Below, in pieces: positions 19,583-34,407 of a stretch of 34,407 nucleotides of DNA. Within the stretch, counting starts at the first letter, position 1. Each line of letters begins with the position of its first letter. The stretch is from an uncultured Microbacteriaceae bacterium (GTDB lineage Bacteria; Actinomycetota; Actinomycetes; Actinomycetales; Microbacteriaceae), in NCBI GenBank assembly GCA_903915075.1, contig CAIWRM010000104.1, positions 1 through 34,407 on the forward strand, in the 5' to 3' direction. The notes beneath the pieces are model-generated. The model ran no database searches and was not told the origin of the DNA. It saw nothing but the letters and a program-made list of their open reading frames with translations. Position numbers and translations under genes: made by a program.

Positions 19583-20940
19583 GACCATTTCTCCTCGATC
19601 GCGCAGGCCAGGGTGAGGCCCACGAGCGATATTGAGCCTGACACTACTACTGCGCCCTTGAGACTTTGCGCTGCATAGGCGCGAGCTTCAACCAATGCCA
19701 CCATGGGGTCGGGCTGCACGGTAACCAGAACCTCTGGGGGAAGGGACAGCGCGGCCGCGATGTCGCCAGCGTCGATGGCTCGATCGCTCGGAGGTGTGGT
19801 GAGAATGATGCGGTGCACAAACGGCGCCAGGGTCGAGACAAACTCCACGTAGTCCTTGTCGGCCAGCGATCCAAAGACCAGGGTGATGTCATCGCAGTCG
19901 AAATATGACGTCAACGCCTCAGCCAGCGATTGGGCGCCGTGTGGATTGTGCGCGGCGTCGACGATGACCGGCGGATTGCTAGCGACACGCTGAAGGCGCC
20001 CGGGCGACGTGACGGTAGCAAAAGCTTCAGCAAGGAGGTTGCGGTCGATGGTTTGGCTCGCCCCGCCCAAGAAACTCTCCACGGCCATCAGGGCCACAGC
20101 GGCGTTGATGGCCTGGTGATCCCCGAGCAACCCCAGGAACAGGTCGTCATAGGTGCCCGCCAAGCCGATAATCGAGACGAGCTGACCACCCACGGCAACC
20201 TCCGACACCACCGAGGTGCCCCCGGTGCCAAGAACGTTAATGGCGGACTCAGTCAGCGCGGCCGCTTCGCGAAGGACGGCCTCTCCGTCGGGTTCTTGCG
20301 GTGCCGACACCACCATGGCAGCAGGCTTGATGATGCCCGACTTCGTGCGTGCGATCGTGTTGATATCGGGTCCGAGTCGTTCGGTGTGATCGAGCGCAAT
20401 GGGCGTAAAGACGGCGACCACGCCATCGGCCACATTGGTGGCATCCCACTCTCCGCCCATGCCGGCCTCGACAACGGCAACGTCCACCGGGGCGTCGGCA
20501 AACGACGCAAAGCCCAGAACGGTGAGCACCTCAAAGAAGGTCAGTCGCAGCTCGCCCTTGGCGACCAGTTCGGCATCCACCATCTCTACATAGGGCTTGA
20601 TGTCAACCCAGTTGGCGACGAGCGTTTCGTCGGCAATGGGCTCGCCGTCAATCTGGATGCGCTCGTTGAGAGAAATCAGGTGGGGGCTTGTAAACAACCC
20701 GGTGCGGAGTCCGAGCGCGCGCAGAATCGACTCAATCAGGCGCGCGGTCGACGTCTTACCGTTCGTGCCCGCGATGTGAATCACGGGATACGCCCGGTGC
20801 ACGTCGCCGAGCAGTTCGACCACGCGACGTGTGGGTTCCAGACGGGGTTGGGGCTCCCCCTCCCCCATGCGCGAGAGGAGTTCCTGGTAGGCCAACTCGG
20901 CGGCGCGCGCGTATTCGGATTCCTCCGCCGACCTAGACAT
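19579..20940 (-). CDS. folC: Bifunctional folylpolyglutamate synthase/dihydrofolate synthase
   Basis: [88 protein letters not shown]. Start MSRSAEESE overlaps the ileS stop by 8 nt (ATGTCTAG). Confidence 0.96.
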
Positions 20941-23900
20941 GGTGGGTGCGCTCCGTTCGCGACACGGCAACGACGAAGTCGCCCACGTTGGCGAAGGCGC
21001 CCGCGTCAAAACGAGCGAAATGCTCAACGTCGGCACTCGAGACGTTGCCGAGCCACTCAGATGCCAACTGGCCACTCAGGGTGGGCAGCAGGTCAAACGT
21101 CGCCGGCGAGTGAATGGCAAACGTGGTGGCCAAGGTCTCTGCCGCGATGTCGGCGCCCGTGGCGTGCGCGAGGGCTGTTGCGTCGGCCTCGTCGAAACAC
21201 ACGACGTCGAGCACGATCCGATCGCTCACCTCGAAGCCAGCCGCCTTTCGGGTGTCCTGCACGGCCCGAATGAGGTCACGCTGGAAGCCTTCCGCCTCGA
21301 GTTCGGGTGTGGTCGTGACATCGAGCAGAACAAAACCACCGCTCGGGATGAGTGCGAGTGCGCGATCTGCGTCGTCGCCGGTCGCCCCGGTTTCGAGGGT
21401 GAGTTCGAACTCACCCGGCTCCAGCGCAGTTCCGCCCGCAACCACCACACCGTTGTTCTCAGACCAGTCGCCGTTCTTTGCCGCCTGAATGATGCGCTGC
21501 ACGTCCTTGCCCAAGCGGGGTCCCGCCGCACGGGCGTTGACCGACAACCGCGACGTGATGCCGAACTCGGTGGCGCTGTTTTCGGTCCAGGCCGTGTTGG
21601 TCACGGTTTTGACGTTCAGCTCATCTCGCAGGATGTCGGCATAAGCGCCGAGCGCCTGGGCGCGTTCGGTGACCACGACGAGTTCCGCGAGGGGCAAGCG
21701 CACACGTCGTCCCGTCTGCTTGCGCAGGGCGAGCGCCGTGGAGACAATCTCGCGGACCTCATCCATGTCGGTAACGAGGTCTGGAGCCTGCGGAAAGTCG
21801 TCGGCGCTCGGCCAGTCGGTGAGGTGCACAGAGCGACCCCCGGTAAGCCCCTGCCACATGCGCTCGGTGACCAGCGGCAAGAACGGCGCCGAAACACGGG
21901 TGAGCGTTTCGAGCACGGTGAACAGCGTGTCAAAGGCATCGCGTCCGTCGGCGGTTGAGGAACCCGACCAAAAACGGTCGCGCGAGCGGCGCACGTACCA
22001 GTTGGTCAGCACGTCGGCGAAGTCGCGCAGGGCCGCTGCTGCCAGTGTCGAGTCGAGCGCATCGAGGTGCTGCTGCACGGTGCGAATGACATCGCCGGTC
22101 TTGGCCAGCAGGTAGCGATCGAGGAGGTTGGTGCTGTCGGTGCGCCAGGTGGCCTCGTAACCGCCACCGTCATCGCCAGCAACGTTGGCGTAGAGCGTGA
22201 AGAAGTAATACGTGCTCCACAGCGGCAGCAGCATCTGGCGGGTGCCCTCTCGGATACCCTCCTCGGTGACAATCAGGTTGCCGCCGCGCAGCACCGACGA
22301 ACTCATCAAGAACCAGCGCATGGCATCGGAGCCGTCGCGGTCAAAGACCTCGTTGACATCCGGATAGTTGCGCAGCGACTTCGACATCTTCTGCCCGTCG
22401 TTACCGAGCACAATGCCGTGGCTAATCACGTTCGTGAATGCCGGGCGGTCGAAGAGTGCGGTGGACAGCACGTGCAGCGTATAGAACCAGCCGCGTGTTT
22501 GCCCGATGTACTCCACGATGTAGTCGGCCGGGTTGTGCGAATCGAACCATTCGCGATTCTCGAACGGGTAGTGCACCTGCGCGAACGGCATCGAGCCCGA
22601 GTCAAACCACACGTCGAGCACATCAGAAATGCGACGCATCGTGGATGAGCCGGTGGGGTCATCGGGATTCGGTCGGGTCAGCTCGTCGATCTGGGGTCGG
22701 TGCAGATCGGTGGGGCGCACACCGAAGTCGCGCTCGAGCTCGTCGAGCGAACCGTAGACATCCACCCGGGGGTAGTCCGGGTTGTCGCTCTTCCACACGG
22801 GAATGGGCGAACCCCAGAACCGATTGCGGCTGATGGACCAGTCGCGAGCACCCTCGAGCCACTTCCCGAACTGGCCGTCCTTGACGTTGTCGGGCACCCA
22901 GTTGATCTGCTGGTTGAGTTCGACCATGCGGTCGCGGAACTCGGTGACGCGCACGAACCACGACGAGACAGCCCGATAGATGAGCGGATTGCGGCAGCGC
23001 CAGCAGTGCGGGTACGAGTGCTCGTAGCTGGCGACGCGAACGAGCCGGCCCATCTCGCGCAGCATGGCCGTGAGGGGCTTGTTGGCGTCGAAGACCTGCT
23101 GACCCGCGACCTCGGTGATGCGCGACAGAAAGACGCCGCCGTCGTCGAGAGACATCATGACGGGAATGCCGTTCTCCTCGCACACCTTTTGGTCGTCCTC
23201 GCCGTAGGCGGGAGCCAGGTGCACGATTCCCGTGCCGTCGGCGGTGGTAACGAACTCTGCCGCGAAGATGCGCCAGGCGTTGGTCTGGTACTCCGGCTCG
23301 TCGGCAAAGTAGTCCCACAGGCGTTCGTAAGACACGCCAACGAGGTCACTGCCGAGAACGGTAGAAGTCACAGCGGCATGCACTTCTGCGGCGTCGGCGT
23401 AGCCGAGCTCCTTGGCGTAGGCGCCGGCCAGGTCCTCAGCGATCAGGAAAGCCGGTTGAGTAGTCGACGCATCGCCGTTCGCTGGTTGAGTAGTCGACGC
23501 ATCGCCGTTCGCTGGTTGAGTAGTCGACGCAGTAGACGTATCGAAACCCGCGAGGCTGAACGCGGGACCCGCCGGCACGACCGCATAGGTGATTGCAGGC
23601 CCCACGGCGAGCGCCGCGTTCGTGGGCAGTGTCCAGGGTGTGGTGGTCCAGGCGAGTGCCTGCACTCCCCCAAGCCCGAGTGCTTCGGCGCGCTCGCCCA
23701 CCAACGGGAAGGCGACGGTGACCGACTGGTCTTGACGCATCTTGTAGACGTCGTCATCCATGCGCAGTTCGTGATTGCTCAGCGGGGTCTGGTCGCGCCA
23801 GCAGTAGGGCAGCACACGGTATCCCTCGTAGGCGAGACCCTTGTCGTGCAGTTGCTTGAACGCCCAGATGGCGCTCTCCATAAAGGTGATGTCGAGGGTC

Positions 23901-24379
23901 TTGTAGTCGTTGTCGAAGTCAACCCAGCGGGCCTGGCGCGTCACGTATTCCTGCCACTCGTGCGTGTACTTGAGCACCGATTCTCGCGCCACCTTGTTGA
24001 AGGCCGCGATGCCCATCTCTTCGATCTGGCTCTTGTCGGTGATGCCCAGTTGGCGCTCGGCCTCCAGTTCGGCGGGGAGTCCGTGGGTGTCCCACCCGAA
24101 TCGGCGCTCGACGCGCTTGCCGCGCATGGTCTGGTAGCGCGGGAACAGGTCTTTGGCATAACCCGTGAGCAGGTGGCCGTAGTGCGGCAGACCGTTGGCA
24201 AACGGCGGCCCGTCGTAGAACACCCACTCTTCGGCGCCCTGCTCGGCGCGTTGCGCGATTGAGGCGCGGAACGTGTCATCCGCCTTCCAGAAGGCGAGCA
24301 CCTGCTCTTCGATGGCGGGAAACGACGGCGAAGGCACCACTTCGGAAGCCTCATTATTGGCCGACTTGGGATAGGTCAC
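20933..24379 (-). CDS. ileS: Isoleucyl-tRNA synthetase carrying an in-frame repeat insertion
   Basis: [108 protein letters not shown] at 24379 ([12 protein letters not shown]) with AGGAG upstream is the likely start; ATG 24409 is an in-frame alternative. Confidence 0.95.
23454..23552. repeat. Palindromic repeat element within ileS, made of two 30-bp tandem units plus a terminal unit
   Basis: GGTTGAGTAGTCGACGCATCGCCGTTCGCT exactly twice (23454-23483, 23484-23513), then GGTTGAGTAGTCGACGCAGTAGACGTATCGAAACCCGCG. Shares GGTTGAGTAGYCGACGCA and GTATCGAAACC with 33822-33895. Confidence 0.95.
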
Positions 24380-24409
24380 GGGTTTCTCCTGAAACGAAGG
24401 ATGGTTCAT

Positions 24410-24640
24410 CTACTTCGCCAGGACGCGATTTTCCCCGCATGTGGGGATTTTCGCGCGGTACCACCTGAGCTTGGTCTCGCGGGCGAGACCCTCTTGTTCT
24501 TTGGCTGTCACGGGCCAGACCCGTTCGGTTCTACTCTTCGTCGATTTCAGCAAGCTGACCCGGCGAATTTCTTCCGAAGACTCCCCGGTGATTGCCGGAT
24601 CAGTGTCTCTATGTCTCAGCCTAATACGTCACGCGGTAAA
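24410..24640 (-). promoter_or_regulatory. T-box leader (Ile-responsive, actinobacterial translational type) upstream of ileS
   Basis: Minus strand has canonical T-box AGGTGGTACCGCG (24455-24467). Upstream is CTGATCCGGCAATCACCGGGGAGTCTTCGGAAGAA, where the short hairpin CCGG-CAATCA-CCGG holds Ile codon ATC as specifier candidate. Stem GGGTCTCGCCCGCGAGACC precedes the T-box. Confidence 0.9.
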
Positions 24641-33109: not shown

Positions 33110-33706
33110 CTACGCTTTCGCGCCCTGGTTCGTTCCGCCGCCGCCAAAGACATCGCCGGCCGATTCGCGCACGTGGTCGACGAATCCATACTCAAGTGCC
33201 TCTTGGGCGGTGAACCAGCGGTCGCGGTCTCCGTCGGCGTTGATCTGCTCAACGCTCTTGCCGGTTTGCCCGGCCGTGATCTCGGCGAGGCGCGTCTTCA
33301 TGGAGTTGATGAGTTGAGCCTGAGTCTGGATATCGCTGGAGGTTCCACCGAATCCACCGTGCGGCTGGTGCAACAGCACGCGCGCGTTGGGCGTGATGTA
33401 GCGCTTGCCCTTGGTTCCCGAGGTGAGGAGGAGCTGACCCATCGAAGCCGCCATACCAATACCCACCGTCACGATGTCGTTCGGCACGAACTGCATGGTG
33501 TCGTAGATGGCCATGCCCGCGGTGATCGAACCACCGGGCGAGTTGATGTAGAGGTAGATGTCGCGCTTGGCGTCCTCGGCCGCGAGCAGCAACATCTTGG
33601 CGCAAATCTCGTTGGCGTTGTCGTCGCGCACCTCTGAACCAAGCCAGATGATGCGGTCTTTGAGAAGCCGGTCGAAGACCGAGTTGGGGGCCTGCATTTC
33701 GGCCAT
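33110..33706 (-). CDS. clpP1: ATP-dependent Clp protease proteolytic subunit (ClpP1-type)
   Basis: [103 protein letters not shown]. Ser/His catalytic motifs intact. Confidence 0.96.
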
Positions 33707-33821: not shown

Positions 33822-33895
33822 GGTTGAGTAGCCGACGCAGTCGGCGTTGCTCGCCGGTTGAGTAGCCGACGCAGTCGGCGTATCGAAACCCCGCG
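33822..33895. repeat. Intergenic copy of the palindromic repeat element, with tandem 34-bp unit
   Basis: GGTTGAGTAGCCGACGCAGTCGGCGTTGCTCGCC followed by GGTTGAGTAGCCGACGCAGTCGGCGTATCGAAACCCCGCG. Hairpin core GCCGAC-GCA-GTCGGC. Confidence 0.92.
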
Positions 33896-33906: not shown

Positions 33907-34407
33907 TTAGCGCAGCGTCTCGAGAATGGCGGAGTTGTCGAGAAGCTTCGCAGCGCGAGCTCCCAGCCACGCCAGGTTCATGTTGGCGAACTCCACATCG
34001 TCGGTGCCGAGCGCGTCGGTGGCCATGACAACCTGAAACCCGCGCTGGTAAGCGCCGAGCACGGCGGCTCGCACGCACGTCTGCGTATAGACGCCACAGA
34101 CCACAACGGTCTCCACGCCCTGCGCCCGCAACCACGGCTCGAGCCCAGGATCGACAAACCCGTCATAGTGCTGCTTGATGGCGACAAACTCGCCATCGGC
34201 CGGACGAAGCGGTTCGGGGGCCAGCACGCCGGGCGTTCCCGCCACGCAGAGCATCTTGTCGGGCAGCCAGTGAGGCATGGCATCCGAGCCATCGGGCGCA
34301 CAGACGGTGTGAATGTGCGCCACAGGCGCACCGGCAGCGCGAAACGCCTGAAGCAGTTGGGCCGCGCCCGAGATAACCTCGTCACGCGTTGGCGTCATGC
34401 CACGGGC
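33907..34407 (-). CDS. Isochorismatase family cysteine hydrolase (5' partial, runs off the right edge)
   Basis: LLQAFRAAGAPVAHIHTV, HYDGFVDPGLEPWLRAQGVETVVVCGVYTQTCVRAAVLGAYQRGFQVVMATDAL. The usual N-terminal catalytic Asp segment is missing; frame stays open to the edge. Confidence 0.88.
   Translation of the reverse strand, partial: ARGMTPTRDEVISGAAQLLQAFRAAGAPVAHIHTVCAPDGSDAMPHWLPDKMLCVAGTPGVLAPEPLRPADGEFVAIKQHYDGFVDPGLEPWLRAQGVETVVVCGVYTQTCVRAAVLGAYQRGFQVVMATDALGTDDVEFANMNLAWLGARAAKLLDNSAILETLR

Follow-up and report, generated by a model that had tools for sequence, protein, structure and literature searches.

An element of a dispersed palindromic repeat family lies in frame, together with tandemly amplified half-units, inside the isoleucyl-tRNA synthetase gene (ileS) of a member of the Microbacteriaceae. 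It is very probable that a REP-like palindrome entered this gene once, in the ancestor of the genus, at a tolerant loop, and that its tandem units have since varied under a reading-frame filter. The position common to the congeners, the restriction to the genus, the variation in unit number, the in-frame arrays in other genes, the covariation of the stem and the presence or absence of copies between species were all observed directly. An earlier, sequence-only reading had proposed an in-frame, amplified palindromic insertion, and this interpretation of the ileS array is supported.

The ileS array and its encoded loop

The stretch of DNA analysed here (the window, 34,407 nt) derives from an uncultured freshwater actinobacterium of the Microbacteriaceae that is known from a metagenome-assembled genome (MAG). 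This genome (G000) was compared with five congeneric genomes from separate assemblies (G001 to G005); all six are fragmented, incomplete MAGs (77–90%), with a contamination of 7% listed for G000. The features of the window are as follows.

20933–24409, minus strand: ileS, isoleucyl-tRNA synthetase, 1158 aa (open frame; TIGR00392; PF00133)
23454–23483, plus strand (coding strand minus): first tandem half-unit, 30 bp (sequence; repeat families; extra units missing in G002, G004 and G005)
23484–23513, plus strand: second tandem half-unit, 30 bp, same sequence as the first (sequence; repeat families; congener comparison)
23514–23548, plus strand: full 35-bp palindromic element, stem TCGAC-GCA-GTaGA (sequence; genome-wide pattern; ortholog in 6/6 congeneric ileS genes)
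23453–23548, minus strand: encoded insert, IleRS residues 288–319 (translation; nothing comparable in other genera; pLDDT mostly <50)
23618–23650, minus strand: CP1 editing-site motif, residues 254–264 (conserved across the family; alignment to solved IleRS structures)
33822–33855, plus strand: intergenic 34-bp unit, an incomplete copy, lying downstream of the ORF at 33907–34398 (minus) and upstream of the ORF at 33110–33706 (minus); not at the orthologous place in G005
33856–33890, plus strand: full 35-bp intergenic element, stem CCGAC-GCA-GTCGG (pattern match); not at the orthologous place in G005

The gene is identified by the equivalog model TIGR00392 (823.8 bits against a cut-off of 621.4) as well as by a match to PF00133, and its minus-strand frame of 1158 aa stays open through the array. 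Two identical 30-mers (GGTTGAGTAGTCGACGCATCGCCGTTCGCT), read directly from the sequence at 23454–23483 and 23484–23513, adjoin a full 35-bp element (GGTTGAGTAGTCGACGCAGTAGACGTATCGAAACC) at 23514–23548, giving a 95-bp array that lies entirely within ileS. Sequence and translation agree with the earlier description of two exact 30-bp units plus a terminal unit, in frame, and with the peptide given there; its start at 23454 also stands, while its end at 23552 does not, as the array stops at 23548. Each half-unit joins the left half of the element to a spacer of 12 bp, together 30 bp. On the coding strand the element is GGTTTCGATACGTCGACTGCGTCGACTACTCAACC, with single-base variants in the congeners; its frames are open, and it reads GFDT...TTQP, in a Ser/Thr/Pro/Gln-rich segment. 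The stem of the ileS element has one mismatch in this genome and is perfect in most congeners. With at most one mismatch, GGTTGAGTAG occurs 6 times in the window versus 0.97 expected, a number that 0 of 100 shuffles reach. Directly upstream of ileS (24416–24612, minus strand) lies a T-box leader-like structure with a AGGTGGTACCGCG motif; its RF00230 score of 43.9 bits (E = 1.4e-8) falls short of the gathering score, 93.

In phmmer searches, solved IleRS structures match on either side of the insert, with no alignment running across it. Together with an AlphaFold model built for the CP1 segment, these alignments place the insert within CP1, between conserved editing-domain segments, as had been proposed from the sequence; in the model it falls between two confident CP1 strands (95–100 and 141–145 of the segment) with pLDDT <50. 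The insert is modelled as a flexible, unstructured surface loop of the editing domain. The PAF residues on both sides had been taken as a possible duplication at insertion, a suggestion that does not hold, with the left copy about 9–12 bases from the element and not abutting it.

A full element occupies the same ileS codon in 6/6 congeneric genomes. The number of extra 30-bp units differs (none in G002, G004 and G005, one in G001, two in G000 and three in G003), in line with the proposed tandem amplification. The spacers of the extra units (GCGAACGGCGAT, GCGAGTGGCGCT and GCGAGTGGCTCT) resemble one another, which suggests that a unit was already present in the ancestor and that copies were gained and lost afterwards. 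In a family alignment, some 80 other Microbacteriaceae genera carry at this site an unrelated hydrophilic loop of widely varying length and sequence, and the insert peptide was never found there. The first insertion is older than the genus, the only variable part being the number of units. As the site is a variable-length loop in all relatives, the insert extends that loop or takes its place and does not enter a conserved core.

Third codon positions within the element have also changed little. Across its 11 full codons, the six species show 3 third-position changes versus 12.7 in amino-acid-matched ileS codons (P = 2.5e-4 on a tree). The G003 ileS (L032) is a mosaic, parts of it being nearest to G000 and the last sixth 95–99% identical to G002, which suggests recombination between species. 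Since no single tree therefore fits ileS, a tree-free version of the test is of importance; it gives 1.5e-4 with all six genomes and 3e-4 with four lineages. So little change is not expected if the DNA drifted freely under protein selection alone, and either DNA-level selection or homogenisation may account for it.

A covarying repeat family in Microbacteriaceae

The pattern GGTTGAGTAG-N(5–33)-TATCGAAACC has 43, 20, 31, 36, 16 and 27 matches in G000 to G005, respectively, with 0 in the reversed control. A looser two-ended pattern finds 1–173 copies in 48 of 200 genomes of the family (reversed control 0), so that the suspected repeat element is indeed a family, with a patchy spread that includes near-complete genomes in one or few contigs. 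Copy numbers in the genus g58 are 0 (G062), 10 (G130) and 172 (G183). Rfam has no family for the element, and a literature search by repeat sequence and family name, with coverage mostly outside subscription journals, returned nothing on it.

The element measures 35 bp (31–38), with fixed ends GGTTGAGTAG and GTATCGAAACC flanking the stem. GTAG stands directly 5′ of the stem, the conserved TCGCYGGTTGA lies outside GTAG, and CGTATCGAAACC follows past the stem; the consensus continues to the left of the 35 bp as TCGCY. MITEs are characterised by terminal inverted repeats and a target-site duplication; as an inverted terminal match, the ends here share GGTT/AACC, 4 bp only. Among 52 distinct 35-mers, which were picked by exact ends so that the invariance of the ends is partly built in, stem covariation is strong: 63 two-sided cells were counted versus 19.9 in shuffles, and 99.2% of cells are paired, dropping to 31–44% in slid controls. 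Each genome also holds 2–8 copies of a stemless cousin (GGTTGAGCNNGTCGAAACC), and at two loci (L079 and L081) tandem stemless relatives (GGTTTCGACAGGCTCAACC) adjoin full elements. Judging by these sequences, the long and short repeats have common ends, hinting at perhaps a common origin.

Copies were studied on contigs covering ~239 kb of G000 and 1.12 Mb of G005. Most G000 copies lie outside recognised genes, including the one the sequence-only reading had seen at 33822–33895; it is present there between two ORFs, with copies that cover 33822–33890. Open frames backed by HMM matches identify in-frame copies in dnaX, mutM, accB (BCCP), recG, one ABC-F gene and one ABC exporter of G000; in G005 such a copy lies at the end of leuC. 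A further candidate carrier is a small membrane protein that has no HMM match. A codon-score test for coding location proved too insensitive beside low-complexity arrays, and open frames and HMMs were used instead. In MutM/Fpg, an in-frame array of 27-bp units, read from the opposite strand (LSSAEG...AYRNP), lies between the N-terminal and H2TH domains (L212 12136–13221 in G000; G005 C1 106–1200), with units that are species-specific. Tandem spacing is a multiple of three in 13/13 coding cases versus 10/37 others (Fisher 3e-6), a result partly built in by recognising genes through frames open across the array. Steps of three are a requirement of working genes and not an independent proof.

Comparison between species shows both whole copies and stems changing. 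The pair at 33822–33890 is missing at the orthologous site of G005. G004 carries an inverted pair of elements, flanked by a ~14-bp direct repeat (CTAGTTGGCGAGGG), where G005 and G000 have none; this pair sits right at a stop codon (L284 1620–1740, compared with G005 C6 ~2243 and L219 5314–5325). No clear flanking duplication was seen at two other insertion sites. In one tandem array all copies have GGCGAC/GTCGCC in G000 (C201) and the compensated GGCGTC/GACGCC in G005 (C4), and in another, compared between G004 and G005 (C23), the same base difference appears in both units. Such paired stem changes can arise by template switching, as has been published (PMC8794818), or else by conversion between copies. 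A search for RAYT transposases (PF01797) gave no match in the 6 congeners or in 20 other genomes of the family, among them near-complete ones with >170 copies, with positive results in 5 of 14 controls.

Proposed history and alternative explanations

We propose a single entry of a REP-like palindrome into ileS, at the hydrophilic CP1 loop, in the ancestor of the genus. This single ancestral insertion is inferred, and some points count against the proposal: the site is already filled in all congeners and the flanks in other genera are too diverged to read an empty site, the third positions of the element have changed less than protein selection alone would lead one to expect, and the genomes are incomplete MAGs. 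The element and one neighbouring base would have added ~12 codons without a stop. Later, the 30-bp half-unit with its spacer would have gained or lost tandem copies, leading to the 0 to 3 extra units seen by species, with only frame-keeping changes surviving. The same process probably acts at many other loci, both in linkers of other proteins and at intergenic sites. Changes in units and renewal of the stem probably came from slippage or template switching at the hairpin, and the effect on IleRS was presumably near-neutral.

An alternative is that the ileS segment is kept for a role of its DNA or RNA sequence, such as an mRNA hairpin, a binding site or a recombination site, and not only tolerated in a loop. 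The third-position conservation (3 versus 12.7) and the strong stem covariation over the whole family favour such a role, but the full ileS copy of G000 has a stem mismatch and its copies do not fold better than shuffles, and therefore no RNA role is claimed. Covariation could moreover come from template switching without selection (PMC8794818), and conversion between copies could limit change, though no other TCGAC-stem copy is listed in G000; we regard this alternative as rather unlikely. Retention throughout the genus would also fit an adaptive feature of the IleRS protein, for example in editing-domain dynamics, to which the DNA resemblance would be secondary. This we hold to be highly improbable, given that over its full length the DNA matches a repeat found throughout the genome, that a similar type of peptide occurs in unrelated proteins, that the extra units number 0 to 3 and that the insert is unstructured in the model.

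Size, copy number, mostly intergenic placement and GTAG directly 5′ of the stem would fit a canonical GTAG REP mobilised by a RAYT transposase, and intragenic REPs have been described (PMC3733652). Against this stand the absence of PF01797 matches in 6/6 congeners and 20/20 other family genomes and a GTAG that is not terminal, with conserved bases outside on both sides, which make this origin improbable. All six genomes being fragmented MAGs, an artefact of metagenome assembly or binning was also considered. It is unlikely in the extreme: separate assemblies of related species have the array at the same locus with differing unit numbers and unit sequences, near-complete family genomes in one or few contigs carry the repeat, and an array of 95 bp is shorter than a typical sequencing read.

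Beyond the single ancestral insertion and frame-filtered unit variation that we favour for ileS, a wider reading is tentative, and we lean somewhat against it as a whole. It holds that the element represents an undescribed mobile hairpin repeat family in Microbacteriaceae that would spread without RAYT, with fixed ends and a stem renewed by paired changes through template switching or conversion, forming in-frame linkers of variable number in essential proteins of replication, repair and translation, and with DNA-level constraint in ileS.

Relation to known palindromic repeats

Rickettsia palindromic elements (RPEs; RPE-1 to RPE-7) are dispersed palindromic repeats found in frame in conserved genes, at solvent-exposed positions common to related species (PMC3767692). 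The element described here is likewise an in-frame palindrome within conserved protein-coding genes, and its position in ileS is solvent-exposed or unstructured, as judged from the AlphaFold model of ileS only. The resemblance to RPEs suggested earlier is closer than was noted then, RPE-7 having been reported in the Rickettsia isoleucyl-tRNA synthetase itself (PMC3767692). By their description, RPEs are set apart by a length of 100–150 bp and another sequence (PMC3767692), versus 35 bp (31–38) for the actinobacterial element. Unlike RPEs, the latter also forms tandem arrays of half-units that differ in number from species to species.

GTAG REPs are mostly intergenic, with some intragenic copies in repair genes and tRNA synthetases (PMC3733652); Actinobacteria are not mentioned in the main text of the 2013 REP survey. 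With these repeats the element shares a hairpin of 20–40 bp, GTAG by the stem, complementary stem variants, high copy number and mostly intergenic placement. GTAG REPs, however, end in an unpaired GTAG, whereas in the element GTAG abuts the stem and is not terminal; long conserved ends surround a hypervariable stem, and no RAYT was found in the genomes tested. The insertion specific to G004, being an inverted pair, is reminiscent of REPINs and BIMEs, but it has the ~14-bp flanking direct repeat, most copies are single or head-to-tail, and RAYT is again lacking. The element works like RPEs and REPs but, as tested, is a member of neither, as its size is not that of RPEs, its GTAG is not terminal and a search of 26 genomes yielded no RAYT. 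What is already known is that palindromes insert in frame (RPEs and intragenic REPs); what is new is the actinobacterial host, the lack of a detected RAYT, the fixed ends, the covarying stem and the in-frame half-unit arrays.

Together these results extend in-frame palindromic insertions, best known from Rickettsia and REP-rich bacteria, to a large family of actinobacteria. Where orthologous arrays differ in unit number, they offer a view of repeat DNA becoming protein sequence. With its fixed ends, covarying stem, concerted array change and no usual transposase, the family is a test case for how repeats move and how stem pairing is maintained without a known function, and a range from 0 to >170 copies within one genus makes it a good setting for tracing the gene responsible for spreading.
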